A stretch of DNA of 24,768 nt, taken from the IMG/VR virus record IMGVR_UViG_3300042549_005655, positions 1 to 24,768 of that record; one strand, written 5' to 3'. The translations under genes were made by a program, and so were the position numbers. The DNA comes from a virus. The number at the start of each line of letters is the position of its first letter. Position 1 is the first letter of the stretch. Below the pieces are notes generated by a model. It ran no database searches. It was given only the letters and a program-made list of their open reading frames with translations, and was not told where the DNA came from. This document shows, piece by piece, positions 2,869 through 21,883 of the stretch.

Positions 2869-2895
2869 CAAAGTTAAAAAAAAAGCCTTAACAAA
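2869..2895 (-). promoter_or_regulatory. Promoter-like element after the capsid terminator
   Basis: On the minus strand TAACTTTG (2876-2869) matches the Bacteroidetes -7 consensus TAnnTTTG. A TTTG at 2895-2892, in the loop of the adjoining hairpin, is 15 nt upstream, slightly shorter than the usual 17-23. If used, it would restart transcription for the connector, tail-completion and fibre genes with a leader of only about 10 nt before the ATG at 2853. Moderate support; the -33 spacing is imperfect. Confidence 0.4.
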
Positions 2896-2913
2896 TTAAT
2901 GCTAAGGCTTTTT
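2880..2913 (-). terminator. Intrinsic terminator after major capsid gene
   Basis: A perfect 11-bp stem (arms 2880-2890 and 2903-2913, core AAGCCTTA/TAAGGCTT) encloses a 12-nt loop at 2891-2902. On the minus strand it is followed by a run of nine Ts. It lies 19 nt after the capsid stop codon and fits factor-independent termination, or partial termination that would leave capsid mRNA more abundant than downstream connector mRNA. Its loop is nearly the same as that of the hairpin at 21405-21432. Confidence 0.8.
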
Positions 2914-2931: not shown

Positions 2932-4014
2932 CTAAGATGCTGAATTTGCTTTGTAGCTTAATAAGTGATTAACACCTTGTAAAGTGTCACCATATCCGAA
3001 TGCTTCAGTTGGTTGAATCCAAACACCAGCATTTACTGAAAGTTTAAGATTGTATTTCAAACCACAAGATAAGAACTCCATTTTTGCATCCCATAACAAA
3101 CCATGTACAATAGGGTCTTCAATTGTAAATGTTTGTACAGTTCCTAAATCAACTGCAAATTCTTTAACAAATCTAGGATTTGTCCATACTTGGAATGCAC
3201 CTTTACCAGCTACGATAATATCGTTTGCACCTTTATTATCCACGTATTTATCAACCTCAAATTGATAACCTGAATTAATAGAGCTTTCAATACCTGAATT
3301 TTGTAATCCTGTGTAATTTGATAATCTTGCGAATTTCTCAAAGTTACCTTTACCAATAATATAAGGATTACCAGCCATTTGAATATCAGAACAATCTGAC
3401 ATAATTTCTTGAATACCTGAATAAACAGGAGCACCACCAACAATACCAGTAGCACCAGCATGAATCACATCAATATCCTTTTGAGTAGTTGAACCACCAT
3501 AAAAAGAACCAAAATTAGTGTAAATTCTATCAACAACTTCTTTATTTAATGCCGTTCTAATTGCATCAGTTTTTCTTAAAAAACGCTCGTAAAACTCACG
3601 CATTTTAATCATTGAGTTTGCAGGTAACCCTAAGCCTTGAATTGCTTGAGATGCTGATTGTTCTAATACTGCTACAGTATCTAAAGTTAATGTAATATCT
3701 ATTTCTTTGTAAATATCTAATACAAAATCTTCTGTGATAAATGAATCTTCTGTTCCTGGTTCACATGAAGGCTCATCGCTAACTTGTGCCATTGTAGCAC
3801 GAGGAATATATTTAATTACACCTTTATAATAATGCCCAGCATCATACAGATTACTTAATTTAGAACCTGCTTTATTTTCTTCAGAAATACCTACTTTTAG
3901 TGTACCTACAGGAGTTTGTAAATACTCAGGATTTTGGGTAGTTGCTACCTCTTTTAATGCAAAAAGAATGTCTCTTGCTCTACCTGTTACATTTAGCGAT
4001 GGAATACCAGCCAT
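2932..4014 (-). CDS. Major capsid protein
   Basis: A 360-aa protein directly after the scaffold gene and before a strong terminator, the usual place for a highly expressed capsid gene. It begins MAGIPSLNVTGRARDILFAL and has alternating helices and strands. A long helical region around 115-165 includes FYERFLRKTDAIRTALNKEV, and the C-terminal half is beta-rich with conserved-looking stretches such as NPRFVKEFAVDLG and WIQPTEAFGYGD. This layout is compatible with an HK97-type shell protein, but I see no diagnostic motif proving the fold. No separate prohead protease gene is visible nearby, so maturation may not involve cleavage, or the protease may be unrecognised. The assignment rests on order, length, terminator and general resemblance to capsid proteins of Bacteroidetes phages. 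Confidence 0.75.
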   Translation of the reverse strand: MAGIPSLNVTGRARDILFALKEVATTQNPEYLQTPVGTLKVGISEENKAGSKLSNLYDAGHYYKGVIKYIPRATMAQVSDEPSCEPGTEDSFITEDFVLDIYKEIDITLTLDTVAVLEQSASQAIQGLGLPANSMIKMREFYERFLRKTDAIRTALNKEVVDRIYTNFGSFYGGSTTQKDIDVIHAGATGIVGGAPVYSGIQEIMSDCSDIQMAGNPYIIGKGNFEKFARLSNYTGLQNSGIESSINSGYQFEVDKYVDNKGANDIIVAGKGAFQVWTNPRFVKEFAVDLGTVQTFTIEDPIVHGLLWDAKMEFLSCGLKYNLKLSVNAGVWIQPTEAFGYGDTLQGVNHLLSYKANSAS

Positions 4015-4026
4015 AATATTAATATT

Positions 4027-4854
4027 TTATACTGTTTGGTGAATTTGTTGATTAAGTCTATCCGCCCATGAGTTAGTTTTTACTTGTACAGTTTGAGTTT
4101 GTGGTGTAGCTTGTGGCGTAGCTTGTTGAGAAACTTTTAACAGTTTATTTTCAGCTAATGCTTTACTTACAACATCCTCATAACGTCCTTCAAAAGATAA
4201 ACTTTCATCAGCGGTTTGGCGAAGTTCTATTTTACCATTAATTAAAACAGGCTTAGCACCTACTTTATTAAGGTATTCATTCAATGCCATTTTTGAAATT
4301 GAATCAATAAAAGGAATTTCAGTATTTAAAGGATTTTTTCTAATGTAATCAGTTGTAATCCAATCAAGTCTTTCGTTTTGATGTTGTTGAACTAATTCCT
4401 TATTAGCATTTGCGAAACTTTCCTTTTCTGCTTGTATTTCCTTCATTTTTTGCTCATATTGAGCAATCAATTCAGCTTCTTTTTTTGAACCATCTTTAGC
4501 ACCGTTTATGCTATCAATCAAAGTTTTAGCTTCCTTTGTAAGTAAACCAATTCTTTTAAATGATTGTGGCTCAGTTGCTTTTAATTCGTCGTACTTTTCG
4601 TCAGTAATACCAAAAGTTTTGAAATTTTCTTTTAGTGTTGCATCAATACCGTCACTAAATTGGCTAAAATAATGACCTTTAATTTCTTTGTCATTTTTTG
4701 CTTTAGTAATTGATATTAAAGAACTAAATGAAGGTGCTAAAGTTTCATCAACTTCAACTGTTTCAACTGACTTCAGTAAATTTTGGAATGATTCAGAATT
4801 AATTTCCGTTCCCGATTTCTCGGCTAATTTTAATAAGATTTCTCCAAGTTTCAT
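4027..4854 (-). CDS. Head scaffolding protein
   Basis: A 275-aa, strongly helical and charged protein 12 nt upstream of the capsid gene. Residues about 108-165 form a long Lys/Glu/Gln-rich coiled coil (AQYEQKMKEIQAEKESFANA and flanks), and the C-terminal region has a low-complexity QQATPQATPQTQTVQ linker (about 245-259) before a short conserved-looking tail (SWADRLNQQIHQTV). Coiled-coil body, flexible linker, short C-terminal capsid-binding tail and location just before the capsid gene are typical of phage scaffolds. It begins a minus-strand unit next to a divergent regulatory region and is separated from portal and MuF by the plus-strand cassette. It could also be a minor head protein, but scaffold is the best fit. 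Confidence 0.7.
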   Translation of the reverse strand: MKLGEILLKLAEKSGTEINSESFQNLLKSVETVEVDETLAPSFSSLISITKAKNDKEIKGHYFSQFSDGIDATLKENFKTFGITDEKYDELKATEPQSFKRIGLLTKEAKTLIDSINGAKDGSKKEAELIAQYEQKMKEIQAEKESFANANKELVQQHQNERLDWITTDYIRKNPLNTEIPFIDSISKMALNEYLNKVGAKPVLINGKIELRQTADESLSFEGRYEDVVSKALAENKLLKVSQQATPQATPQTQTVQVKTNSWADRLNQQIHQTV

Positions 4855-4892
4855 TGGACTGTAATTATTTAGTTTAAACTTATGGCAAATAT

Positions 4893-4923
4893 ATTGTATA
4901 TTAAAAAAACATTATTACATTTG
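4893..4923 (+). promoter_or_regulatory. Bacteroidetes-type promoter of the accessory operon
   Basis: TTG at 4893-4895, a 20-nt spacer and TACATTTG at 4916-4923 match the TTG-N17-23-TAnnTTTG consensus of Flavobacterium and relatives. Transcription would start near 4928-4932, about 18 nt before the ATG of the RHH gene. It would drive the whole plus-strand cassette to the terminator at 7137-7162. Confidence 0.6.
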
Positions 4924-4938
4924 TAACATAGTGTAACA
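4915..4938. repeat. Candidate operator: TGTAACA repeats
   Basis: TGTAACA occurs at 4922-4928 and again at 4932-4938, exactly 10 bp apart (one helical turn). TTACA at 4915-4919 forms an inverted repeat with TGTAA at 4922-4926 across the -7 box. Such closely spaced short repeats over a promoter are the usual operators of ribbon-helix-helix proteins, and an RHH-like gene starts 10 bp downstream. Binding is inferred. Confidence 0.45.
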
Positions 4939-4947
4939 CTTTAATAC

Positions 4948-5088
4948 ATGAGTAAGAATAGAATAACTGCACATACAACCCCTTTTGTTAAACAATACTA
5001 TGAAAAATTAGCAAAAGATAGAAGGACTTCAATAAGTCAAGTTGCGGAAGAAGTATTGTATAATGAAGCTAAAAAAAATTCAAAATGA
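4948..5088 (+). CDS. Small ribbon-helix-helix (CopG/Arc-like) regulator
   Basis: A 46-aa protein whose pattern fits an RHH DNA-binding domain: a short strand near ITAHTTPF (residues 6-13), helix 1 FVKQYYEKLAKDRR (13-26), a turn with TSIS, and helix 2 ISQVAEEVLYNEAKK (29-43). RHH proteins act as dimers that insert a two-stranded beta ribbon into the major groove. It is the first gene of the plus-strand cassette, directly behind a promoter with tandem TGTAACA repeats, so autoregulation of the cassette and perhaps repression of the divergent scaffold promoter is a sensible inference. Its stop overlaps the next start as ATGA. Being so short, the family call rests on pattern alone. Confidence 0.6.
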   Translation: MSKNRITAHTTPFVKQYYEKLAKDRRTSISQVAEEVLYNEAKKNSK

Positions 5089-5225
5089 GTGATGAACAAT
5101 ATAATTTAGAATTAATTGCAGAAACTGTAGTTAATGTTGAAAGGAAATATAAACGCTTTTTAATTAGTCTTATATTAACTTCTTTAGTATGTTTTGCAAT
5201 GTTAACAATAATTATAATTAAATAA
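5085..5225 (+). CDS. Small single-pass membrane protein
   Basis: A 46-aa protein with an acidic N-terminus (MSDEQYNLELIAETVVN), a basic anchor (ERKYKR) and one hydrophobic segment at about residues 25-45 (FLISLILTSLVCFAMLTIII) ending in Lys. By the positive-inside rule the N-terminus should be cytoplasmic. It overlaps the previous gene by ATGA and joins the methyltransferase gene through TAATG, so it is embedded in the operon. Function unknown; small phage membrane proteins of this kind often affect entry, lysis timing or superinfection, but nothing in the sequence decides this. Confidence 0.6.
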   Translation: MSDEQYNLELIAETVVNVERKYKRFLISLILTSLVCFAMLTIIIIK

Positions 5226-5722
5226 TGAAAAAACAACCAAGTAAACACATTTGGGATTCTGAAACAGAATGTGCAAAGTTCTTAGCTAACTTTTGCGAAA
5301 TGTCAAATTTATTTAAAATCCTTGAAGTAGGAGTTTGGCAGGGTGCTACATCGGTATATCTTGAAAAAGTTTCAAGTGAATTTGTAGGTATTGATATTGT
5401 TAATGAGCAAATAACAAGCGAATTAATAAAGAGTAAAACCTTAGTAGGAGATTCTATCGAAGTAATGAAAACTTTACAATCAAACTACTTTGATTTGATT
5501 TTCATTGATACTACACACGAATATGAACGTACTAAAATTGAATTTAAAGAGGCTGAAAGGCTTATTAAACAAAACGGTTATATTGCTTTGCATGATTCAA
5601 TTTCGCATCAAGGTGTAAAGAAATGGATTGACGAAATTAAAGGTAATAAAGGACTTGAAATTATAACCTTTGAAACACCAAACGCTAACGGTTTAACTAT
5701 TGTAAAATATTTGTATGAGTAA
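5225..5722 (+). CDS. Class I SAM-dependent methyltransferase (Methyltransf_24-like)
   Basis: A 165-aa protein with a compact Rossmann-type methyltransferase core. Motif I is ILEVGVWQGAT (residues 32-42), the acidic residue after strand 2 is D57 in VGIDIV, VGDS (74-77) is the next cofactor loop, DLIFIDTTHEY (90-100) is the strand-4 region, and GYIALHDS (118-125) follows strand 5. This FIDxxHxY plus LHD pattern is typical of the Methyltransf_24 group, which often modifies sugars or other small molecules, rather than of DNA methyltransferases; no DPPY or NPPY catalytic motif is present. The substrate cannot be told. It starts at TAATG and overlaps the next gene by 8 nt. Together with the window's glycosyltransferase it might act on glycans, but that link is speculative. 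Confidence 0.75.
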   Translation: MKKQPSKHIWDSETECAKFLANFCEMSNLFKILEVGVWQGATSVYLEKVSSEFVGIDIVNEQITSELIKSKTLVGDSIEVMKTLQSNYFDLIFIDTTHEYERTKIEFKEAERLIKQNGYIALHDSISHQGVKKWIDEIKGNKGLEIITFETPNANGLTIVKYLYE

Positions 5723-6128
5723 CGAACTAGAAGATTATTATACCTTTCAAAGAGGTAATACTTATAATATATCATTAAATGATATTAATATAGGTAATTT
5801 TGTTTTTCAAAGATTTGATACTTACCCTAACTGTCATTTTCTAAATAAAGGTAACAATACATTTGTTGAATTTGATAATTTATCTATTAGATTAGATGAA
5901 ATAGATAATTACGAAATAAACCTAATTAAAGAATCTGATTATATTGATAGCAGTAAATTAATTAATGGAACAAAATATTTAATTGGTTCAACTAAAGAAA
6001 ACGCTAAATATTATACTGTAGTTAGTAAATATTCAGAAGGTTATTATGTGTTAAACCATGAAAATAATCAAATTCAAAAATTTATGTATTTATCTTTTGT
6101 AAATTATAAAGTATTTAAAAATGCTTGA
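5715..6128 (+). CDS. Hypothetical protein of the accessory cassette
   Basis: A 137-aa, Asn/Tyr/Ile-rich acidic protein with many beta-strand-like stretches (TYNISLNDINIGNFVFQRF, YYTVVSKYSEGYYVLNH) and no transmembrane segment or motif I recognise. The C-terminal half reads like a small barrel (GTKYLIGSTKENAKYYTVVS). It overlaps the methyltransferase by 8 nt and the superinfection-immunity-like gene by 8 nt, so the three are probably translated together. The very high AT content matches the rest of the cassette. No function is proposed. Confidence 0.6.
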   Translation: MSNELEDYYTFQRGNTYNISLNDINIGNFVFQRFDTYPNCHFLNKGNNTFVEFDNLSIRLDEIDNYEINLIKESDYIDSSKLINGTKYLIGSTKENAKYYTVVSKYSEGYYVLNHENNQIQKFMYLSFVNYKVFKNA

Positions 6129-6291
6129 GTTTATACAGACAGTAATAGTAATACTATTATATTTCTTACCTTCATGTTTAGCACATGATAGTAAAAACTT
6201 TGGTCAAATATTGGCTTTAAACCTTTTATTAGGTTGGACTATTATTGGTTGGATTGTAGCTTTAATTTGGAGTTTAGCACCTAAAAAGTAA
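6121..6291 (+). CDS. Superinfection immunity-type small membrane protein (Imm-like)
   Basis: A 56-aa protein with two hydrophobic segments: about residues 5-20 (IQTVIVILLYFLPSCL) and 30-51 (ILALNLLLGWTIIGWIVALI). Between them is a short polar loop starting AHDSKN, and the end is basic (PKK). The YFLPS-x-x-AH hairpin and the LNLLLGWT-x-IGWIVAL-x-W segment are hallmarks of the family named after T4 Imm, an inner-membrane protein that blocks DNA injection by a second phage. Many members in bacterial genomes have no tested function, so exclusion is likely but not proven. It overlaps the upstream gene by 8 nt and meets the next at TAATG, inside the plus-strand cassette. Confidence 0.75.
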   Translation: MLEFIQTVIVILLYFLPSCLAHDSKNFGQILALNLLLGWTIIGWIVALIWSLAPKK

Positions 6292-6632
6292 TGGTAAATT
6301 TTGAGTATATAAAAAATCATGAAAAAGAAATAAAAGAACTATTTAATAATAGTTCTTTCTTTTATCCTGAAAAAATTGAAGATATTTCATCAAGAATAGA
6401 ACATAATAATGGTATAAGGTTATTTTGCACTAGAAATGTTTATCGTGGCGATATTTCAGTAATTAAAAATATTGTAAAAGTAATGAAGCTATTAAAAGCT
6501 AATCATTTTCAATTTCATGATAATGCTAATAATTTTTGGTTAGACTTTTATTATATTCTATCTGAAAAAGAATTAAACGAAATAAAGAAGTTTAATTTAT
6601 TAAAACAATTAAATGAATTAGAGAATGGATAA
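6291..6632 (+). CDS. Hypothetical protein of the accessory cassette
   Basis: A 113-aa soluble-looking protein, mostly helical and Lys/Asn-rich, with the stretches IKNHEKEIKELFNNSSFFYP and LLKANHFQFHDNANNFWLDF. Several His and aromatic residues sit in the middle, but they form no metal or catalytic motif I can name. It starts at TAATG behind the Imm-like gene and overlaps the next gene by 8 nt. No homologous family recognised. Confidence 0.55.
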   Translation: MVNFEYIKNHEKEIKELFNNSSFFYPEKIEDISSRIEHNNGIRLFCTRNVYRGDISVIKNIVKVMKLLKANHFQFHDNANNFWLDFYYILSEKELNEIKKFNLLKQLNELENG

Positions 6633-6837
6633 AACACTTAAATATATTCAATCATTTTATACAAATGCTGAGTTTATAAATGGCAATGAGTTAAAATTAT
6701 CTGAAAGTTTTGTACTTAAAAAAACTTGCTCTTGTGGTTTCTTAAAGCTTTACAAAGATAATAAACACATTGATAGTGTAAGAACTGGCAACAATACTTT
6801 AATGCTTCAACAAATTAAAAAATATTTAGGCTACTAG
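6625..6837 (+). CDS. Hypothetical small protein of the accessory cassette
   Basis: A 70-aa basic protein with a CSCGF motif (Cys at about 35 and 37) in the middle, a predicted helix at the N-terminus (LKYIQSFYTNAEF) and another at the C-terminus (LMLQQIKKYLGY). Two cysteines alone do not make a zinc site. It overlaps the preceding gene by 8 nt and lies 4 nt before the next. Function unknown. Confidence 0.5.
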   Translation: MDKTLKYIQSFYTNAEFINGNELKLSESFVLKKTCSCGFLKLYKDNKHIDSVRTGNNTLMLQQIKKYLGY

Positions 6838-6841
6838 AATT

Positions 6842-7138
6842 ATGTTAAGTAACTTAGCTTATTACAATAATGGTAAATATAAAACAAAATGTTACCATGG
6901 CAATGAAGGTAGTATATCAAACCTTACTTTATATAAAAAAACTTTTATTGGTTATATAGAAGTAGATTGTAAAGGATTAACTATTTCTAATTATATTAAC
7001 AAAAATAACTTAATAAAAGATATTGATTTTTATAATCAAAATAGTAAGGATGTTGATTATAAAAATAAAATGGTATTAATATATAACTTATTTATTATTA
7101 TGATTGGTATTTTTATTTTCTATAAAATTTTAAATTAG
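6842..7138 (+). CDS. C-terminally anchored hypothetical membrane protein
   Basis: A 98-aa protein with a polar, Asn/Tyr/Lys-rich N-terminal domain and one hydrophobic segment at about 76-96 (MVLIYNLFIIMIGIFIFYKI). The basic DYKNK just before it, and the absence of a signal peptide, suggest a tail-anchored protein with the main domain in the cytoplasm. It is the last gene of the plus-strand operon; its TAG stop (7136-7138) lies in the left arm of the terminator hairpin, and the last few codons overlap the 3' end of the convergent MuF-like gene. It is the third membrane protein of the cassette. Function unknown. Confidence 0.55.
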   Translation: MLSNLAYYNNGKYKTKCYHGNEGSISNLTLYKKTFIGYIEVDCKGLTISNYINKNNLIKDIDFYNQNSKDVDYKNKMVLIYNLFIIMIGIFIFYKILN

Positions 7139-8032
7139 GCTACTAATTAAGTAGCCTTTTTTATCTATTTCGGGAACTACCAACTCATCAACTGGCAATA
7201 TTTGATGCCTACAATTATAACCACCTCTATAAGTGTAAATTGTTTTTTCGTTTGTTTCGGGAATCCTTCCACCGCCTTTGTTTTTCTTAGTTTTACAACT
7301 TTCCCAAAGTGATGGAGTTTTACCCCAATATGCAACCTCTGATTTATGAAAATATCTACCAACACGTTCTAAACAGAAACATCTTGAGGTAATTTGCTTA
7401 CCGCCTTGATATAAAAACCATTCAAAATCTAAGTCATCAGTAACCGCTTTTATATAGTTACCTTGATATTGATATAAAGCATCATGAGTAATTTGAGATA
7501 CATACCTTTCCAGTCCTCCTAACTCTTTAGGTTGTCCTAAAATTTCAATCTTAAGTGATTGTTGCAACTCTTTATAAGACAAACCATTTACAACACTTTG
7601 ATTTAAAATGTTTTTAATTGGCGTTTCTAAAGCTTGTTTTAAACCAGCTTGTGTAAGGCTTTCAACTGTTGTTTCGATATTTAAAACACGTATTGCATCA
7701 TAAACTTTCTTTACTTCAAAACTTGTATTGATAGCTGAAAAATAAGTATTCATTAATGTTTGTACCTCATTAAATCCTTTTACATACTCATTTAATTTAT
7801 TGATGTAATCAGTATTTAAAACAATACTATCAATGTTTGAGTTTATTTTACTTACTTGTTTTAAGTTGTTTACGCTTGTTTTAATTGAATCTCCTGTACG
7901 GTCTAATTTAGTAATCTCATTTACTACATTATCGTAAATTTCTTTTTGAATACTATTAAGTGAGCCTTCAAACTTATTTGAAAACTCACTTATAACAGTA
8001 TCAATCTTTTCAATTATCTCCTCAGGTGTCAT
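7130..8032 (-). CDS. MuF-like minor head protein
   Basis: A 300-aa protein immediately after the portal, starting at a TAATG junction with it. The N-terminal two thirds are helical. The C-terminal third carries the typical MuF-family layout: a helix ITHDALYQYQGNYIKAV (181-197), then SRCFCLERVGRYFH (216-229), a glycine-rich stretch and finally YRGGYNCRHQILPV (268-281). C218, C220, H229, C246, C274 and H276 could bind a metal. MuF proteins are minor capsid components encoded next to the portal and are implicated in head assembly and early DNA delivery. There is no C-terminal toxin extension as in some family members. Its last codons overlap the convergent accessory operon and its terminator. 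Confidence 0.75.
   Translation of the reverse strand: MTPEEIIEKIDTVISEFSNKFEGSLNSIQKEIYDNVVNEITKLDRTGDSIKTSVNNLKQVSKINSNIDSIVLNTDYINKLNEYVKGFNEVQTLMNTYFSAINTSFEVKKVYDAIRVLNIETTVESLTQAGLKQALETPIKNILNQSVVNGLSYKELQQSLKIEILGQPKELGGLERYVSQITHDALYQYQGNYIKAVTDDLDFEWFLYQGGKQITSRCFCLERVGRYFHKSEVAYWGKTPSLWESCKTKKNKGGGRIPETNEKTIYTYRGGYNCRHQILPVDELVVPEIDKKGYLISSLI
7137..7162 (+). terminator. Terminator of the accessory operon at a convergent junction
   Basis: AGGCTACT (7137-7144) and AGTAGCCT (7150-7157) form a perfect 8-bp stem with a 5-nt loop, followed by Ts to 7162. It overlaps the stop of the plus-strand gene and lies within the last codons of the minus-strand MuF-like gene. It is a good plus-strand terminator; on the minus strand the following tract is weaker. 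Confidence 0.75.
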
Positions 8033-9765
8033 TATACTTGTGGCGTAGGTATTAACGTAGGTTTGTTAGCTTTCAAATACTCTTCTGCGTATTTATCTAC
8101 TATCTCAAATCTTTTCAGTAATGGTAACTCTTGAAAGTTTTTAATCTCCTCAAATGCTTTTGTAACAAACTGATTAATTAAATTATGAGTAATAATAGTT
8201 TTTTGGCTAACTCCTGTTGATTGCATTGTAAGTACATCATCTGAAGTTGCCCCACGTAAAGGGTCTAACTGAATAATATTTGTATGAAATGCTATTTGTC
8301 TAGGGTTACCTGCAAACTTTTTAGAAACATACGCCAATTCCATTTCTTCTAAAATAGAACTAGAAATACCGTTTTGTTTTGCTAATGCAATTTGTTGTTC
8401 TAATTCAGAAACTCCAACAATATCATAGTTTGTTGGTGTAGTAATGAATGGCAATTGATTATTCAACTCCTCACTACCTAAACCTAATAACACACCATAT
8501 CTTTGGTCATTTATAAACTTAATTATATTTTTAAATACAACTTGGCAAATATAATCAGCAACTTTAAATATAAATAAATTTGTTTGTTCCCAATCGTAAG
8601 CCTTAGATGTTCCGCTAGTATTCATCGGCATTTCTGACAAATGGCTCATGTTTACCGCATCATAACCACTATTAATAAGTTGTTTAATATCTTCGCTTAA
8701 AAACTTAATAGGGTCAAGATTTCTATCAATATATTTTTTTGGCGCCCAACTTGGTAGTGCATCTTCTCCACCTTTAGTAGGTCGAACCACCAAATCAGCA
8801 AATGTACTACTTTTTGCTATTCCTGTACCATCGCAATGACTACAAGTATGTCTAGTTATAGAGCTTCCTATTTTTTTCTCTATTTGCCCTTGACCGTTAC
8901 AATGCATACAAATTTGTTGCCCATAAATTGCACTTTCAAGGTATGTATGCATCTTAATACCTGCGTTTTTATCGGTATTTTCTACTAATGCTTGGTCAAA
9001 GTCTGGAACAATACCAGCAATAAAAGATTCATAAAGAAAGTTATCTTTTAAGTATTTTATTACTCCACCATTATAAATAAATGGTATGTAACCTGAGTTA
9101 TGAACCCAAATAATATCGGTATTATACTGTCCTTTTTCATTTTGAACTAACTTGTATAAATTAACTTTATCCCAAATAGTCCAAACTTTCTTTCCTTCTT
9201 TTAGAATCAATAAATCATAATCAATATACTGACAATCTTCAATACAATAATAGTAAGGCAAAGGCTCTACAAATTCACTTTCTTGTATTTCATAAATTTC
9301 TCCTTCAATAGCTTCGTGAATATGCTTTGGCATTGTAACTTGAACTCCATTTGCATCTTGCAAAAAGTTTTCAAAGTTGTAATTAAAGAACCAATTTTGA
9401 ATAGATTTGTATTTACCAAATCCTTTGGTTATATAATCGTAAATACCTTGTCCATCAGCTACTTTAGGACTTTCATTACCTTTTATAATTACAAAGTCAT
9501 TTGCTCGGCTAATTTTTGATAAAACAGAAGTTATTTTACTTGTACCTTTTTTAGTAATAGGTCTGTAAATCTTTGCTTTATATTCTTTAATCCAATCAGG
9601 CTCAGAAGGTTGATAAGATGTTAGTAATTCTGCAACATCCTCATATTTACCGCTAAAATGCTTTTTAAGTGCTTTGTAAAGTCTTATTTGCTCATCCCTT
9701 ACGTATGCATCATGATAGCGAGTAATATACTTATCAATGAAATCTTTAGAACCTATTTGTAACAT
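8032..9765 (-). CDS. Portal protein with a DnaJ-like zinc motif
   Basis: A 577-aa protein with the length and position of a portal (dodecameric DNA gate at the capsid vertex), directly before the MuF-like gene and upstream of scaffold and capsid. The N-terminal part has stretches common in such portals (RDEQIRLYKALKKHF, YKAKIYRPITKKGTSKI). The C-terminal part has long helices around EMPMNTSGTSKAYDWEQTN and EELNNQLPF. Residues 286-315 hold two CxxCxGxG motifs, CMHCNGQG (286-293) and CSHCDGTG (308-315), the signature of DnaJ cysteine-rich zinc repeats. I infer an inserted zinc-binding loop or knuckle. The rest of DnaJ (J domain, HPD) is absent. It is followed 1 nt-overlapping by MuF and preceded by the glycosyltransferase gene. 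Confidence 0.75.
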   Translation of the reverse strand: MLQIGSKDFIDKYITRYHDAYVRDEQIRLYKALKKHFSGKYEDVAELLTSYQPSEPDWIKEYKAKIYRPITKKGTSKITSVLSKISRANDFVIIKGNESPKVADGQGIYDYITKGFGKYKSIQNWFFNYNFENFLQDANGVQVTMPKHIHEAIEGEIYEIQESEFVEPLPYYYCIEDCQYIDYDLLILKEGKKVWTIWDKVNLYKLVQNEKGQYNTDIIWVHNSGYIPFIYNGGVIKYLKDNFLYESFIAGIVPDFDQALVENTDKNAGIKMHTYLESAIYGQQICMHCNGQGQIEKKIGSSITRHTCSHCDGTGIAKSSTFADLVVRPTKGGEDALPSWAPKKYIDRNLDPIKFLSEDIKQLINSGYDAVNMSHLSEMPMNTSGTSKAYDWEQTNLFIFKVADYICQVVFKNIIKFINDQRYGVLLGLGSEELNNQLPFITTPTNYDIVGVSELEQQIALAKQNGISSSILEEMELAYVSKKFAGNPRQIAFHTNIIQLDPLRGATSDDVLTMQSTGVSQKTIITHNLINQFVTKAFEEIKNFQELPLLKRFEIVDKYAEEYLKANKPTLIPTPQV

Positions 9766-9769
9766 AAAA

Positions 9770-10672
9770 TTAATGTTTTAGCCTTTCCTTTAAGAAATTA
9801 AATTTGTCAATCCAAACCCAACGTGAATTTGTCATAAATTTACCACTTCTTTGATAATATACCAACACAAGTGTATTATAGAAATTTTTTAATTCAGTTC
9901 CTAATCTATTACCAGCCATTGATACAAAGTAATAAGTTTCATAGAGTTTCTTTCTATCAACCAAATTAACTTGATTTGCACCTGCTGGATACCAAAATAT
10001 CGGCTGATATGGTTTTTCTTCTTTAACATTGTTTAACGCTAAAGATATGCTAAAAGCAAATTCATCGCCCATACCGTTCGCCCATTCTCTAGTACCAAAA
10101 TCCTTTTTTCTAAATCTTTCCTCCGCAGTTTCAAATATTGCCTTAGCTTTATTTGTTTTCTTAAAGTATAAGAAACTACTTTGAATATGATAAAAAATCG
10201 CATCTTTTTTAAACTTGAAATATTTATTTAAATCGTTAATACATTCCCCTTCTGCATTCCAAAATACACTACGTTCGCTAGTAATTGGGAATACATCATT
10301 TTCACTATAACAAGTAAATCCAAAGTCTTTATGCTTGAATTTCTCAAATAATGAATTAATATCTTGTTTTGGTAACCAAATAGAATCAACATCTAAAAAG
10401 ATTGTTTCTTCAAATGGACTAAACTCGTAAACCCTTGTCTTAGTGTAAACGTGTTGCTCTTTACCTTCAATTGTGTAAAAACTTGGTTCAAGTTCCGTAA
10501 AGCTATCAAAATAACTTTTTTGTAATTCTGTTAAACCTGTTAAATTACCCTTTGTATGTACTAAGTGTATTAAAATAGCCTTATCGCATTGTTTCAACGA
10601 TAAGGCTAAATTAAATGCCATCTTAGGGTAATTAGTATGTCCTGTTGCTACTAATATTATCCCTCTTTTCAT
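9770..10672 (-). CDS. GT-A type glycosyltransferase with DXD motif
   Basis: A 300-aa protein beginning with a Rossmann-like strand (KRGIILVATGHTNYPKMAFN) and carrying ETIFLDVDSIWLP, in which D94-V-D96 is the DXD motif that binds the metal and the nucleotide sugar in GT-A enzymes. GDEFAFSISLAL around residue 204 and IFWYPAG further on resemble acceptor or base regions of GT8-like enzymes. It probably transfers a sugar from a nucleotide sugar in the cytoplasm. It lies between a probable tail tube gene and the portal, all in the same direction with 4-5 nt gaps, so it is expressed with virion genes. Glycosylation of a virion protein is one reading; modification of host surface glycans is another. 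Acceptor unknown. Confidence 0.7.
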   Translation of the reverse strand: MKRGIILVATGHTNYPKMAFNLALSLKQCDKAILIHLVHTKGNLTGLTELQKSYFDSFTELEPSFYTIEGKEQHVYTKTRVYEFSPFEETIFLDVDSIWLPKQDINSLFEKFKHKDFGFTCYSENDVFPITSERSVFWNAEGECINDLNKYFKFKKDAIFYHIQSSFLYFKKTNKAKAIFETAEERFRKKDFGTREWANGMGDEFAFSISLALNNVKEEKPYQPIFWYPAGANQVNLVDRKKLYETYYFVSMAGNRLGTELKNFYNTLVLVYYQRSGKFMTNSRWVWIDKFNFLKERLKH

Positions 10673-10677
10673 GTTGC

Positions 10678-11202
10678 TTAATTAAATATTCCTGCTGGTG
10701 CTGGATATGAAATAGCCATATTTTCATTAGTCCATTTACACATAACCTCATAAGTTACTACATCTGTAGTATTTTCAGTTATTGCTTCTTTTGCAGATAA
10801 TGATAACGGAGCATCAGTATTGTAAATTTTAGTTTCAGTTCTATACCATAAAACATAGTTTTTGGCATTTTTAGTGAAATTATTATACCAAACCTCATTA
10901 TTTTGAGTAGTATTTGGGTCAAAGTAGTTTAAGGTATGGATTCTACCTGTAAACTCCGTTGCTTCGTCACCGAAACCAGCACCCTCAGAAACTGCTCCAC
11001 CATCGTAATTACCACGTACTTGTGGAATTATAATAGCATCGCCACTAGCAATTAAAGCATTCCATTCTGAAGCATCAGTTGGGTCTAAAATTGTTGAATT
11101 TTTATTTACAAAAGCAACCGAGCGAACACGCCCTAATTCTTTTGGTAAACATGCAAGAACTTCGTAAACGCCTTGCTCTACGCAATTGTCATAAACACTC
11201 AT
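10678..11202 (-). CDS. Probable major tail tube protein
   Basis: A 174-aa beta-rich protein with the pattern AIIIPQVRGNYDGG (residues 75-88), a glycine-rich EGAGFGDEATEF and a mid-section YVLWYRTETKIY. The C-terminus ends with TYEVMCKWTNENMAISYPAP. The length, composition and absence of catalytic motifs fit a tube-forming protein, and I associate this pattern with a structural family frequent in Bacteroidetes siphophages (recollection, not a search). No other gene in the tail block is a better tube candidate, although a tube gene usually sits before the tape measure gene, not after it. It could instead be a head decoration or another structural protein. Confidence 0.45.
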   Translation of the reverse strand: MSVYDNCVEQGVYEVLACLPKELGRVRSVAFVNKNSTILDPTDASEWNALIASGDAIIIPQVRGNYDGGAVSEGAGFGDEATEFTGRIHTLNYFDPNTTQNNEVWYNNFTKNAKNYVLWYRTETKIYNTDAPLSLSAKEAITENTTDVVTYEVMCKWTNENMAISYPAPAGIFN

Positions 11203-11214
11203 TTGTATATTAAT

Positions 11215-11940
11215 TTAACAGTTTGAATTTTGATAATTAAATATTGTTTTATAAATCTTTGATTTACATTGCATTAGACTATAAAGTTTTACAAACGTAG
11301 GAACAAAGTTTTCACAAATATAAGGAACTCCATCAATATTGCAATAATCGTGAATACTAATAAAATTTAGTCTTTCAAGTTCGTATTTTGGTAGTGATGC
11401 AGTTGATATAGTTTCAACATCTTGTAATGATGCTGAAAGCCTTATTTTAGTATTATTCGAATCTATGTAAACAGTTTCTTCAACTGGATATTCATTTTCA
11501 TCAAAGGTAAATTGAGTATAAGCGTAACCTTTCCAACCAGCATACGAAACACCATCTATCATTTCATTATTTGAGTACTCAAACTCATGTATATTTTGCC
11601 AATAATCAGCAATTACAAAATGCTCAGAAACTCCTAAAATAATAGGCTCTAATGGGTCTGTAGTGGTTTGAGTATTTTGATAAATCATTGCATACAATTG
11701 CCTATTATAGTAAGCATCTTGTAAGTTTAAATCGATTTTAACTGTATATCTACCTGTACTGAAAGAAGTCATTACCCACTCAGTTAAACAAGTTCCATCG
11801 CAATCAAACCACCCTAGAATAGGAGTTGATACATCGGTTTGAATTTGCATAGCAAACCAACCCCAAGATGGAAACTTTTGTTCGTAAGGTGGTCTTGTTT
11901 CCCCTCTTTGTCCTTGATATTTATACAGAGTTTCAACCAT
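11215..11940 (-). CDS. Putative tail-tip structural protein
   Basis: A 241-aa protein rich in aromatic residues and predicted strands. It has a WGWFAMQIQTD / ILGWFDCDGTCL stretch (residues about 26-52) that reads like a beta-sandwich, and several cysteines (CDGTC, CNIDGVPYIC, C-terminal NSNC). It begins at TAATG with the upstream gene and lies 12 nt before the tail tube candidate. No family recognised with confidence; a distal tail or baseplate component is inferred from being in the run of genes downstream of the tape measure. Confidence 0.5.
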   Translation of the reverse strand: MVETLYKYQGQRGETRPPYEQKFPSWGWFAMQIQTDVSTPILGWFDCDGTCLTEWVMTSFSTGRYTVKIDLNLQDAYYNRQLYAMIYQNTQTTTDPLEPIILGVSEHFVIADYWQNIHEFEYSNNEMIDGVSYAGWKGYAYTQFTFDENEYPVEETVYIDSNNTKIRLSASLQDVETISTASLPKYELERLNFISIHDYCNIDGVPYICENFVPTFVKLYSLMQCKSKIYKTIFNYQNSNC

Positions 11941-12839
11941 TATGCAGAATAGTTTTTAGCTATGTAGTTAATGTTAAAGTAAAAATAAACATCCTTATTT
12001 AATGCTATAGTATTATTCCCATTAAGTTGTAATACTAATTGAGTAGTAGTGTTAAAATATGCAAAACCTGTTAGTATTTGGTCAACTGTTGTAGAACTTG
12101 AATTGTAAACTACCCCTGTAATTGGGAATATAGCATTAATATTTGAAAGTTCTCCCACTTGATTAGCACTTTCATAATTAGGGTCTAAATCAACATACAA
12201 ATCTATTTTTTTATCAGTTAAATTTTGGCTCGAATTAAAAACAGAAACACCTCCATTAATACTAACTTTTTTACCTATTTTAGAGCCTTGCATTTGAAAC
12301 TCAATACCACTAACACCACTTAATCCACCAGCATTTATATTAGTAAATATATCTGTTTGAGTGTCATCAAATATCAAACTACCATAAACGTAATCATTTC
12401 TTAGTTGATATGTGTAAGGCACAATTACCCAATCTGAAATTAATGTAGTATCTGCAATATTATTATTAAATGTTACTCTACCAACTAAATTAGTTGATGT
12501 TGTTCCACTTTCAATATTGACAATGAAAAATTTTGAAGGATTAGCTAAAGAAAAGAATTTTACAGTTTGATTTGCATTACCTACATATGAACTGTGTATT
12601 GTAGTAAAGTTATAATCTTCACCAATTAACATGGTTGATAGTGAAAATGATGCTCCTGTATATTTCGCAATATTCTCAGGGTTAGCATATTCTACATCAA
12701 AATCAGTTGAACTACTCTTAACTAATCTTTGTCCGATTGTACCACCAGCAAATTCATTAACTGCATCTACTAAATTATCATTTTTAGTTTTAATTGCACT
12801 CCACAAATCGGATGTTAACCATTTTGTTAATAAAGCCAT
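11940..12839 (-). CDS. Putative tail appendage / fibre-like protein
   Basis: A 299-aa protein with a helical N-terminus (MALLTKWLTSDLWSAIKTKN), then GGTIGQRLVKSSSTDFDVEY (residues 32-51), a pattern often found near the N-termini of phage fibre or appendage proteins. A long beta-rich, Ser/Thr/Asn-rich body follows, with repeated predicted strands such as FFIVNIESGTTSTNLVGRVT and KKVSINGGVSVFNSSQNLT. It has no enzymatic motif. It follows the SprB-repeat protein by 1 nt and precedes the next gene at TAATG, so it probably forms part of the same tail-tip assembly. A receptor-binding role is possible but not shown. Confidence 0.5.
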   Translation of the reverse strand: MALLTKWLTSDLWSAIKTKNDNLVDAVNEFAGGTIGQRLVKSSSTDFDVEYANPENIAKYTGASFSLSTMLIGEDYNFTTIHSSYVGNANQTVKFFSLANPSKFFIVNIESGTTSTNLVGRVTFNNNIADTTLISDWVIVPYTYQLRNDYVYGSLIFDDTQTDIFTNINAGGLSGVSGIEFQMQGSKIGKKVSINGGVSVFNSSQNLTDKKIDLYVDLDPNYESANQVGELSNINAIFPITGVVYNSSSTTVDQILTGFAYFNTTTQLVLQLNGNNTIALNKDVYFYFNINYIAKNYSA

Positions 12840-13224: not shown

Positions 13225-15405
13225 CTATTCAACATAGTCACATTCAACATAATCAGATTCTACATATTCCATATTGCACTCATCCGAATCAACGAAAGAT
13301 TTAAGCAATTGTATGTTAGCTAGTCCTTTTTGTGGATTATACTCCAAATTTAAAATAAATCCTTGAATAATTGTATTGTTTACTGAATTAACTTTTATTT
13401 CTGCATTTGTTGCTGACTTTATTGTCTTATAGTTAGTCCAACTTAAAGGTGCTTCAAATATTACTGTGTAAGGCTCAAACAAAGGTTTATTTGCAGTATT
13501 GTATTCTTCATTAAATATTAAATCGTCATTTTCAGTTAATAATTGCTTTTCAAAATTATTACTACATAAACTATTTAACTTTGTACTCATTAAATAATTC
13601 TTTGTAGCCGATGCAAACGTAGATTTAGATCCTGCAAGTTTACAATAAGCACCCGAAAACTGTTTGTTATGAAGTAATAAATTTCTTACAGGACTTAATC
13701 GCAAATTGTACGATGTTTCTGGACTAAGAATATTATTAACTTCTATAAAGTTTTCATTCTTTTCAGCAAGGTTTAATTCACTTGGTATGCCATCAAAATC
13801 AACCGTTCTTTTTGTTGCAATAATGAAAATATCATTATCAAATTTCCAATCGCTTGTACTTGTTGTTTTGTATTGTTGCCTTCTAGTAAACTCAATAGCG
13901 TAATGGTCTGCAATGCCACTAGAAACTGCTAAATACTCATTTTTTATCTGAGTTATTGGCGTGTTGTATTCTCGCATGGTTGCAAAACCATCTAATGTAT
14001 TTGCTTTGTCCGTTCCTTCCTCTGTACCATCTTTAGCGTAACCAATTTTTATAGTATTGTAAATATAATCTTGTTGCATTTCAATTACTCTACTTCTAAT
14101 TGTATTGAATTGAATTACAACCTCATTACGGTTATAAAAATACTCTACTGGCTCAATAACTACTAATCCATCTTCAAAACCTATTCCTAAATTAAAGACA
14201 GGTTGAACTGCATCAAATAAAGCTTTAAAGCTTGTGAAAAATGGCTTTTCTTCAAACTTTCTAACACTTAAGCCATTGGTTAAAGAAGTAAACGAACCGC
14301 AACCATTTTGTAAATATCCAATATCCTTTCTTCCAAAGAAATCAGATTTAAACTTATTTGCTCCAAATAGTTGCTCCGTTGCTTTGTCGAATGCTTCATG
14401 TATAAGTACTGTTTTGGCGGTGCTTGAATCGGTTAATGTTATAGCTTCAATGTTTAAAAATGAAGGGTTTGTAAATGTTGTAATGAAATTACTTGTTAAT
14501 GGAAACCCACTTATAGTAGTATAATTTGCTAAAACAAAAGCAATTTTTACTTCATCATTTTCATTCAATGATAAAACAAAAGAATCATTATAATCAATGG
14601 CTTGTGTTATTGTACCACCTCCTGTACTAGTTTTAGAACCATAATTTATTAAAGGTGTTGCAGTACCTCCATTTATTTGTATAGTTAATTGTAAATTAAA
14701 ATTCCTTTGTTTACTTGAAAAGTTTTGAAATTGTCCGTTAAAATCAAAAGTAAATGTATAATCACTTGTGAATTTAGCTTTAAATATTTTACCAACTGCC
14801 CCCCATGATTCTGCTGGACTTGTTTGTAAATCTTCAAAAGCACTTTCTAAATCATCTGTATTTATAACAATAGGAGGAACTATAAATAAAGTTTTTAACT
14901 CATTTGTAGTATATTCAGCTATTGTTGGAACGCTTAAACTACTTTGAATAAAATTAGATGTCAATACAATAGCTTTACTATGTAAAGTCATTTCGTTAAT
15001 ATCCGTACCGTCAAACAAATCAAACTTCTTATCCATATTATTGAATAAAGTCAATGATTCATTTTGTTCCTCAAAGTTTAACGTACAACTACAAAAATTC
15101 CCCTCTTTTATACTGAAATTAGAGAAGTTACCTTTACCTGTAAATACTTCTTCAAACTCTAAGTTTTCAGCACATTGTACACTAATTTTTAAGCTAATAT
15201 TTGCTAATATACCAAGTGTTTCAAATAGATTTCTGAGTAATAAATAACCATTACCTATAAACTCTAAATCGTTAGTATACTCATAAAAAATGCCATGATA
15301 TTTCTTATCTCTTTTAACTTTAATAGCCGAAACATCCCAACCTATTGGCTCGGATATTTCAGTACTATTATTGTCTTGGTCTATTAACTCAAATTTATAT
15401 TTCAT
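13225..15405 (-). CDS. Large distal tail / baseplate hub-type protein
   Basis: A 726-aa protein starting at TAATG right after the tape measure gene, the usual place for a distal-tail or tail-associated hub protein. The N-terminal ~120 residues (KYKFELIDQDNNSTEISEP, IKVKRDKKYHGIFYEYT) are beta-rich and look like a tail-joining domain. The middle contains IGFEDGLVVIEPVEYFYNR (roughly residues 410-430), a strand arrangement similar to hub domains. The extreme C-terminus holds a short acidic repeat, YVESDYVECDYVE. I see no lysozyme or peptidase motif. The protein type is familiar from Bacteroidetes siphophages, but the exact role is inferred from position and size. Confidence 0.6.
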   Translation of the reverse strand: MKYKFELIDQDNNSTEISEPIGWDVSAIKVKRDKKYHGIFYEYTNDLEFIGNGYLLLRNLFETLGILANISLKISVQCAENLEFEEVFTGKGNFSNFSIKEGNFCSCTLNFEEQNESLTLFNNMDKKFDLFDGTDINEMTLHSKAIVLTSNFIQSSLSVPTIAEYTTNELKTLFIVPPIVINTDDLESAFEDLQTSPAESWGAVGKIFKAKFTSDYTFTFDFNGQFQNFSSKQRNFNLQLTIQINGGTATPLINYGSKTSTGGGTITQAIDYNDSFVLSLNENDEVKIAFVLANYTTISGFPLTSNFITTFTNPSFLNIEAITLTDSSTAKTVLIHEAFDKATEQLFGANKFKSDFFGRKDIGYLQNGCGSFTSLTNGLSVRKFEEKPFFTSFKALFDAVQPVFNLGIGFEDGLVVIEPVEYFYNRNEVVIQFNTIRSRVIEMQQDYIYNTIKIGYAKDGTEEGTDKANTLDGFATMREYNTPITQIKNEYLAVSSGIADHYAIEFTRRQQYKTTSTSDWKFDNDIFIIATKRTVDFDGIPSELNLAEKNENFIEVNNILSPETSYNLRLSPVRNLLLHNKQFSGAYCKLAGSKSTFASATKNYLMSTKLNSLCSNNFEKQLLTENDDLIFNEEYNTANKPLFEPYTVIFEAPLSWTNYKTIKSATNAEIKVNSVNNTIIQGFILNLEYNPQKGLANIQLLKSFVDSDECNMEYVESDYVECDYVE

Positions 15406-21372: not shown

Positions 21373-21389
21373 AGCCTAGTTGTTTGGTT

Positions 21390-21421
21390 CAAAATTAAAT
21401 AAAAAAAGCATAACAAACAAA
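21390..21421 (-). promoter_or_regulatory. Promoter of the terminase/late operon overlapping the terminator
   Basis: On the minus strand TTTG (21421-21418), a 20-nt spacer and TAATTTTG (21397-21390) match TTTG-N17-23-TAnnTTTG. The -33 element lies in the loop and the spacer covers the stem and U-tract of the hairpin at 21405-21432. Transcription would start about 5 nt after the box, giving a leader near 12 nt to the terS ATG at 21372. Confidence 0.55.
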
Positions 21422-21432
21422 TGCTATGCTTT
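21405..21432 (-). terminator. Intrinsic terminator upstream of terminase
   Basis: Arms 21405-21412 (AAAGCATA) and 21425-21432 (TATGCTTT) pair over 8 bp around a 12-nt loop. On the minus strand the stem is followed by seven Ts and more A/T. It would end transcripts coming from the replication module before the late operon. The loop (ACAAACAAATGC on +) is almost the same as that of the hairpin at 2880-2913. Confidence 0.7.
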
Positions 21433-21470
21433 AATTCACACTATTATAAGGGTTAGTGAGCGTTTCCCTA

Positions 21471-21484
21471 TTACACAAATGTAA
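21471..21484. repeat. TTACA-CAAA-TGTAA palindrome, candidate regulatory site
   Basis: TTACA (21471-21475) and TGTAA (21480-21484) form an inverted repeat with a 4-nt spacer. On the minus strand the site contains TACATTTG, a -7-like box, but no -33 TTG at a proper distance. The half-sites are the same as at 4915-4926 in the accessory control region. It may be an operator or an orphan promoter; it also covers the end of the split small gene. Confidence 0.3.
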
Positions 21485-21725
21485 TACTTTCTTTTAGAAT
21501 ATTCATATTGTGAATTGAATTAGTTGGATAATTTAATATTTCACCACGCCTCCATTTGTTGTACTTCATAAGTATATTATAATTATACTCGCAAATAGGT
21601 TTAACTACGATAGCTATGTAGTGTATAGCTTCGCCAATTTATTCAGGTGTATAGCTATTTTTTACATTTTGCAAAATATGTACAACGTGTGCATTACATA
21701 TTATTTTTGCTTGTTCTAGGTTCAT
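21471..21725 (-). pseudogene. Small gene split by an in-frame TAA (84-codon frame)
   Basis: From ATG at 21725, which overlaps the previous stop as ATGA, the frame reads 28 codons (MNLEQAKIICNAHVVHILQ, then NVKNSYTPE), meets TAA at 21641-21639, and in the same frame continues for 55 sense codons (IGEAIHYIAIVVKPICEYN, then YNILMKYNKWRRGEILNYP and so on) to TAA at 21473-21471. Both parts look like coherent protein and one C-to-T change (CAA to TAA) would explain the stop. The second part could still be made from ATG at 21569 (32 aa). Alternatives are a natural short ORF followed by chance open sequence, a sequencing error, or stop readthrough. No family recognised. The rest of the 500-bp stretch 21373-21872 holds the elements listed separately and one further small gene. 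Confidence 0.45.
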
Positions 21726-21883
21726 ACAATTCTATAATAATTTATTTGCTCCTTAGTTTCGTAGTGTCCTGATTTAAGCGGATGTGCATTATACCAATCT
21801 ACATATGCCTTATTTCTTAATTTATCTTCGTAAGATTGTTTATTTAACTTTTCGTGTGACATCGTGAATACTCTAATTTTCAT
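21722..21883 (-). CDS. Hypothetical 53-aa protein
   Basis: A short frame from ATG at 21883 to TGA at 21724-21722: MKIRVFTMSHEKLNKQSYED, a basic helical stretch, then YVDWYNAHPLKSGHYETKEQ and a short tail ending YYRIV. It overlaps the VRR-NUC gene end by 11 nt and the next small frame by ATGA, and its codon use looks like that of its neighbours, which supports it being real. Its His/Tyr/Lys content offers no catalytic pattern I can name. Probably an accessory of the replication module. Confidence 0.5.
   Translation of the reverse strand: MKIRVFTMSHEKLNKQSYEDKLRNKAYVDWYNAHPLKSGHYETKEQINYYRIV

Follow-up and report, generated by a model that had tools for sequence, protein, structure and literature searches.

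The nearest described arrangement to the one reported here appears, by analogy, to be the ant moron or immunity I region of phage P22 (mnt, arc, ant and sieA). In the P22 genome (NC_002371), the arc/ant promoter (14793-14821) and the minus-strand mnt promoter (14798-14826) overlap by 24 bp (14798-14821), with the Arc operator (14798-14818) inside the overlap, the Mnt operator (14822-14844) just beyond it, arc as the next gene and sieA nearby. The ant moron varies among P22-like phages, and the accessible part of PMC2629481 suggests a role for it in setting the level of the tailspike. MuF polymorphic toxins, as described in excerpts of PMC5576092, come with small downstream immunity genes, and Bxa, itself a MuF fusion, is reported in excerpts of PMC11699363 to be neutralised by two adjacent immunity proteins, one of them an ADP-ribosyl hydrolase. 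We use the term moron as the accessible text of PMC4378225 and PMC2629481 does, for genes with a promoter before and a terminator after them, inserted relative to related phages and unlike their neighbours in composition.

Our analysis concerns a single virus record of 24,768 bases, which we call the window, with a GC content of 22.5-33.2% in 1-kb steps and genes mostly on the minus strand. Its head genes are placed as follows.

8032-9765, minus strand: portal gene (PHROG 7376)
7130-8032, minus strand: MuF-like head morphogenesis gene, 300 aa, without a toxin tail (PHROG 2468 'head morphogenesis', E=0.0065; length and similarity)
4027-4854, minus strand: scaffold gene, assigned by position (homologues in loci L006, L035, L037, L038 and L041)
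2932-4014, minus strand: capsid gene, assigned by position (homologue in L006)
2880-2913, minus strand: terminator-like hairpin after the capsid gene (hairpin analysis)

Between the MuF-like gene and the scaffold and capsid genes lie eight plus-strand genes (4948-7138), so the accessory island led by a 46-aa gene that the initial annotation had described is present. With a probability of about 0.5, we read it as a multi-gene moron lying just upstream of a head-gene promoter, with a lead protein that would repress its own operon. The scaffold and capsid proteins had no family match in family profile searches, and apart from the evidence listed, the name MuF-like is taken from the place of the gene after the portal. 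No similar DNA was found when the window was compared with the phage collection by megablast, tblastn of the portal and capsid in phages gave zero matches, and scanning viral_contigs with the capsid alone or the 137-aa cassette protein alone revealed no relative. The two nearest contigs stop inside the MuF gene, short of the promoter junction, and provide no within-species promoter comparison. From the promoters and the relatives discussed below, we infer a Bacteroidota host.

Two features of the genes around the portal were seen along the way. At portal residues ~284-316 there are two CxxCxGxG-type cysteine motifs resembling those of DnaJ (PF00684, E=0.00048, a match below the cut-off), whose cysteines are invariant in the portals of L006 and L010. 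The adjoining minus-strand gene (9770-10672) encodes 300 aa with 43% identity to the L010 gene in the same place; Pfam gave no match for its product, and our impression is that of a glycosyltransferase.

The reverse cassette consists of the following parts.

4948-5088, plus strand: 46-aa lead protein, probable ribbon-helix-helix repressor (weak PHROG Arc-like match; helices in the model)
5085-5225, plus strand: 46-aa hydrophobic protein (gene calls and translation)
5225-5722, plus strand: methyltransferase (Methyltransf_24, PF13578, 5.2e-12)
5715-6128, plus strand: 137-aa protein, with a homologue at the same place in L010 (37 residues aligned)
6121-6291, plus strand: T4 Imm-like superinfection immunity protein (PF14373, 2.7e-15)
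6291-7138, plus strand: three genes without assigned function, of 113, 70 and 98 aa (gene calls; family searches)
7137-7157, plus strand: cassette terminator hairpin whose T run is on this strand only

The anatomy of the cassette fits that of a moron, with a promoter before it and a terminator after it, both recognised by consensus and their activity predicted. Its genes are tightly packed (six of the seven joints overlap, by 1-8 bp), and its GC content is 23.8% versus 29.3% outside. By tblastn, the Imm-like protein matched 395 phage records, a large share of which carry an Imm annotation. PADLOC gave weak, methyltransferase-type matches and nothing else. These contents bear on the idea of a counter-defence operon with an Aca-like regulator, in which the small genes without assigned function would inhibit host defences and the 46-aa protein would limit their promoter. 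Varied small genes under a single promoter are what such an operon would look like, the core-promoter inverted repeats described below recall those of Aca-controlled operons (PMC9410906, in part), and the available part of PMC11065993 includes HTH or RHH domains among anti-defence candidates of archaeal viruses. However, the Aca families covered in the accessible part of PMC9410906 are HTH proteins, the PADLOC matches are weak, and the sole gene of a clear family is one for superinfection immunity, so we consider this explanation unlikely. In the moron and RHH-moron literature within reach, which leaves aside subscription journals, we found no publication describing this arrangement.

The cassette is missing from six relatives. 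No reverse gene lies in the MuF-scaffold interval of L006, L030, L031 (the same as L032, the two counted once), L036, L040 or L055. The order portal-MuF-scaffold-capsid is collinear in L006, L030, L031, L040 and L055, with the scaffold genes of the last four assigned by position, and L036 has a MuF-scaffold-capsid-like order. In L006, whose portal is 38% identical, 69 bp separate MuF from the scaffold gene. The MuF proteins of these loci are as short as that of the window, with 299 aa in L006 and 279-305 aa in L030, L031, L036, L040 and L055. L010, with a portal 44% identical and a MuF protein of 299 aa, has a homologous reverse cassette at the same place after MuF, comprising an Imm homologue, a stretch that aligns with the 137-aa protein over 37 residues, and an FkbM methyltransferase. 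Its contig ends inside the cassette and thus provides a partial twelfth interval for the comparison made below; a long, near-symmetric hairpin at the end of its MuF gene could stop transcription in both directions.

The initial annotation had taken the lead protein for a ribbon-helix-helix (RHH) protein, which we regard as a plausible candidate assignment. Its best PHROG match is 'Arc-like repressor' (phrog_3431, E=0.045, residues 2-42); none of nine non-gene frames of similar length scored at or below 0.1 in the control, but the match is weak because unrelated Pfam, PHROG and NCBIfam entries match the protein at E 0.06-0.1. Nothing significant was found for it in Pfam, in PDB sequences, or in phages and plasmids by tblastn, and no HTH family matched it in Pfam, PHROG or NCBIfam. 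The RHH_1 and RHH_3 profiles did not match in the window record, and RHH_1 gave one weak match, below the cut-off, across 12 records of pattern-hit or relative loci. A single-sequence model (mean pLDDT 83.5) has helices at residues 12-23 and 29-44 and an N-terminus of low confidence as a monomer, and might be what a lone RHH subunit looks like. Foldseek returned nothing at E<=0.001 with this model and VIA-align re-ranked 69 chains with a best Z of 4.2, a comparison that speaks neither for nor against the fold, as RHH chains were absent from both lists. In pairwise alignment, the score of the 46-aa protein against P22 Arc was reached by 35 of 255 control frames, and its score against Mnt by 6. 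On balance, we lean towards an RHH protein, and the layout of the junction suggests that it probably represses its own promoter.

At the junction between the cassette and the scaffold gene, the following elements were located.

4893-4896, plus strand: ATTG, -33 element of the cassette promoter, 19 bp upstream of TACATTTG
4916-4923, plus strand: TACATTTG, -7 box of the cassette promoter (TAnnTTTG consensus), predicted start ~4928
4886-4893, minus strand: TATATTTG, putative -7 box of the head-gene promoter (TAnnTTTG match), without a consensus -33, predicted start ~4881
4915-4926, no strand: candidate operator, the inverted repeat TTACA-TT-TGTAA covering the -7 box of the cassette promoter (symmetry and shuffles)
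4922-4928, plus strand: TGTAACA box 1, -6 to +1 relative to the predicted start
4932-4938, plus strand: TGTAACA box 2, +5 to +11, within the palindrome AGTGTAACACT (4930-4940)

The plus-strand promoter fits the consensus of the Bacteroidota primary sigma factor (TAnnTTTG with an upstream TTG or TTTG), which we took from the accessible parts of PMC7366714 and PMC9723704; the predicted starts follow from the latter, which places TAnnTTTG at -12 to -5. The pattern TTG-N19-TAnnTTTG occurs three times in the window, both strands counted, and arose in 0.25% of cases when the 93-bp gap was dinucleotide-shuffled 20,000 times. The -33 TTG had been placed at 4893-4895 in the initial annotation; the element itself stands and its position shifts one base to the right (4894-4896). 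The claim that it touches a minus-strand -7 match holds, as ATTG and TATATTTG have one base in common. The minus-strand box sits 31 nt upstream of the scaffold ATG, has no TTG ahead of it at spacings of 16-23, and by itself is found in 12% of shuffles of the gap, which is not significant. The missing -33 does not disqualify it, because the accessible part of PMC7366714 states that a -33 motif could not be identified in F. johnsoniae. The two -7 boxes are distinct elements with an inner distance of 22 bp, and the predicted core promoters, if both are used, have 4893-4916 (24 bp) in common. The divergent arrangement thus stands as a prediction from motifs, with the cassette promoter and the head-gene -7 box in common DNA. 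Elsewhere in the window, a 500-bp gap without a main ORF (21373-21872) contains a hairpin and the palindrome TTACACAAATGTAA, which includes, on the minus strand at 21483, a TACATTTG identical in its letters to the -7 box of the cassette promoter.

The TGTAACA repeats do overlap the predicted plus-strand start region, as had been claimed, and the inverted repeats at 4915-4926 and 4930-4940 span -13 to +13 of the cassette promoter. Shuffling the 93-bp gap produced the exact pair in 0.005% of cases, some 7-mer recurring at a 10-bp step in 2.5%, and two non-overlapping copies of some 7-mer within 20 bp in 29%, so what sets this repeat apart is mainly its position and internal symmetry. Lone copies of TGTAACA occur elsewhere in the window at +8161, +9758 and -3991. 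The 29% figure agrees with an unregulated moron, in which the promoter would be constitutive or early, the boxes would have arisen by chance in AT-rich sequence and the lead protein would have another role; the failure of the RHH_1 and RHH_3 profiles to match points the same way. So does a search of viral_contigs with the promoter-plus-repeat pattern TANNTTTGTAACANNNTGTAACA, where none of 16 stretches, several of them near-duplicates, was found before a small repressor-like gene; all were checked for a downstream ATG frame, 10 of the 16 being listed on both strands, and two had one (663 and 128 aa). However, the exact pair has internal symmetry over -13 to +13, and the 46-aa gene has the lead position and an Arc-like protein as its best PHROG match, so that we hold an unregulated moron to be somewhat unlikely. 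In L021, an unrelated viral contig, three TGTAACA copies follow at 10-bp steps right after a TAnnTTTG box (~8372-8394, minus strand).

A search of bacterial genomes with the MuF alignment gave 11 loci, with matches in 2/393, 7/300, 1/395 and 1/1 genomes (centre genomes and repeats included), and brought in four Bacteroidota-type prophages, L035, L037, L038 and L041, all four of which carry reverse-oriented genes in the interval from MuF to the head genes, along with scaffolds homologous to that of the window (E 1e-12 to 2.5e-7). The reverse gene of L035 encodes a 69-aa DUF7675 protein, those of L037 and L041 are frames of 86 and 104 aa with no confident family match, and L038 carries an HTH_3 regulator, two genes without assigned function and an ADP-ribosylglycohydrolase (8e-33). 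Their MuF proteins are long (713 aa in L035, 704 in L037, 809 in L038 and at least 664 in L041), and in L038 the protein has a match to PHROG 16625 'Bxa ADP-ribosyl transferase' (1.8e-11). Given these tails and the literature on Bxa and MuF toxins, the reverse genes of the four prophages are best read as MuF-toxin immunity genes of a known kind, and we dropped the idea that they occupy the same moron slot as the window cassette. In L038, a Bxa-like ADP-ribosyltransferase tail on MuF is followed by the reversed ADP-ribosylglycohydrolase, the two genes without assigned function and the HTH_3 gene within 5980-12785, and the spacer of its cassette promoter holds the palindrome TAAAATGTATTTTA.

The window cassette could likewise descend from, or still be, an immunity locus of a MuF polymorphic toxin, and it does share its interval and orientation with the genes of these four prophages, in line with the MuF toxins and adjacent immunity genes known from Bacteroidales prophages (PMC5576092 and PMC11699363, both in part). 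We find this very unlikely, as the MuF proteins of the window and L010 have 300 and 299 aa and no tail, and the comparisons made showed no resemblance of any cassette gene to the reverse genes of the prophages.

Eleven complete intervals between MuF and scaffold could be read, five with reverse genes (the window, L035, L037, L038 and L041) and six without; they are few, come from loci that a small number of alignments could reach, and include phages as well as gut prophages. L036 and L041 are labelled as other phyla (Peregrinibacteria and Eubacteriales), possibly binning errors. Left out were L039 (the same as L058), L042 (L056) and L044 (L059), as remnants or contig ends, as well as L043 (no recognisable scaffold), L045 (weak match), and L054 and L057 (MuF remnants near contig ends), the last two with a reverse promoter and an 83-aa reverse frame after MuF, respectively. 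In the occupied intervals, the stretch separating the reverse genes from the first head gene had a -7 box 5/5 times on either strand; the full TTG-N17-21-TAnnTTTG promoter was found on the reverse-gene strand in 4/5 (not L041) and on the head strand in 4/5 (not the window). In L041, full promoters had been expected on both strands and the cassette strand had the -7 box only. The full reverse-strand promoter arose in 1.1% (window), 3.3% (L035), 2.7% (L037) and 1.3% (L038) of shuffles. Among the six empty intervals, the head strand had a -7 box in four and a full promoter in one, and the reverse strand had both in one (L031, inside a gene). Measured between their inner ends, the -7 boxes stand 22 bp apart in the window, against 75 bp in L037, 76 bp in L038, 135 bp in L035 and 158 bp in L041, where the two promoters do not overlap; divergence is common to the other occupied intervals, and overlap is seen only in the window phage.

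The same intervals bear on whether scaffold and capsid have a promoter of their own, or depend entirely on read-through from the portal-MuF operon, in which case transcription would cross the cassette in antisense and the minus-strand -7 box would be a chance match. Read-through could occur because the 7137-7157 hairpin has no minus-strand T run, and it gains from the shuffle frequency of the lone -7 box and from L036, where the gap before the scaffold lacks such a box. Scaffold-strand -7 boxes also precede the scaffold in L006 (TAATTTTG) and L030 (TATATTTG), however, and the chance of this in the window, L006 and L030 together is 0.0007, a flattering figure because L036, with a similar 93-bp gap, has no such box. 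The stretches upstream of the scaffold in the window and L006 align better than 98.9% of 3000 base shuffles (p 0.011). The bidirectional potential of the MuF-end hairpin in L010 and the separate terminator of the scaffold-capsid pair also argue against read-through as the only source, and we judge it improbable. Relatives that lack a cassette also have a head-strand -7 box, so the promoter of the head genes probably predates the insertion.

Taken together, our preferred reading of a self-repressing moron would work as follows. The cassette lies between MuF and the head promoter, faces away from the head genes and has its own promoter and terminator, so that capsid transcription would still be possible, and scaffold and capsid would retain an older promoter just beyond the insertion point. 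The 46-aa protein, made first, would bind as an RHH repressor to the TGTAACA boxes, which cover the -7 box and predicted start of the cassette promoter, and once bound would shut down its own operon. In the weakest part of the proposal, polymerase on one promoter might exclude it from the other within 4893-4916, and repression of the cassette may then favour transcription of scaffold and capsid; a coupling of cassette state to scaffold expression is possible on this layout. A wider proposal is that reversed protective genes generally settle in the MuF-scaffold interval of Bacteroidota phages, with toxin immunity where MuF is toxic and regulator-led cassettes against rivals or defences otherwise, that the head promoter insulates the capsid, and that in the window phage the promoters have merged into an exclusive switch between immunity and head genes run by the 46-aa protein. 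We regard this as quite unlikely as a whole, its odds as a general moron slot being lowered by the long tails of all four prophage MuF proteins. If right, it would point to the MuF-to-scaffold interval, in backward-facing genes behind a TAnnTTTG promoter, as the site to look for cargo of Bacteroidota phages. The locus would also offer a compact test of whether a moron repressor tunes capsid-gene output, an effect of the kind suggested for the ant moron of P22 on its tailspike, and would connect a phage of the Bacteroidota type with a T4 Imm-like superinfection-immunity gene.

Compared with the P22 ant moron, the locus shares a variable cassette inserted in a late operon, a superinfection-exclusion gene within it, divergent promoters that overlap by 24 bp (14798-14821 in P22; 4893-4916, predicted, in the window), a suggested effect on the expression of a neighbouring structural gene (PMC2629481, in part), and a small repressor gene adjoining its operator, both being candidates in the window and the repressor a known RHH protein in P22. 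It differs in that the comparison with Arc and Mnt did not single out the 46-aa protein, the promoters are of the Bacteroidota type, and the cassette precedes scaffold and capsid rather than the tailspike. Both overlapping promoters lie inside the moron in P22, whereas one belongs to the head genes in the window, and the TGTAACA boxes, which cover the start site, are placed more like the Mnt operator than the Arc operator. The acr-aca operons, as far as the available part of PMC9410906 describes them, likewise have a regulator gene in an accessory operon and inverted repeats in the core promoter, but in the window the candidate regulator is the first gene and has no HTH match, and no anti-CRISPR was among the PADLOC matches. 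As in the prophage MuF toxin systems, accessory genes lie reversed between MuF and scaffold, although MuF has 664-809 aa with tails there and 300 aa with no C-terminal extension in the window, so that no toxin to guard against is visible. Divergent transcription and possible polymerase competition also recall the symmetric bidirectional promoters of E. coli (PMC12825309, in part), where pseudo-symmetric DNA serves both directions, whereas the window has two distinct -7 boxes. As judged from its sequence, we call the locus a moron of a known kind, in a variant that is regulator-led, has a promoter overlapping a head-gene promoter and belongs to a Bacteroidota-type phage.
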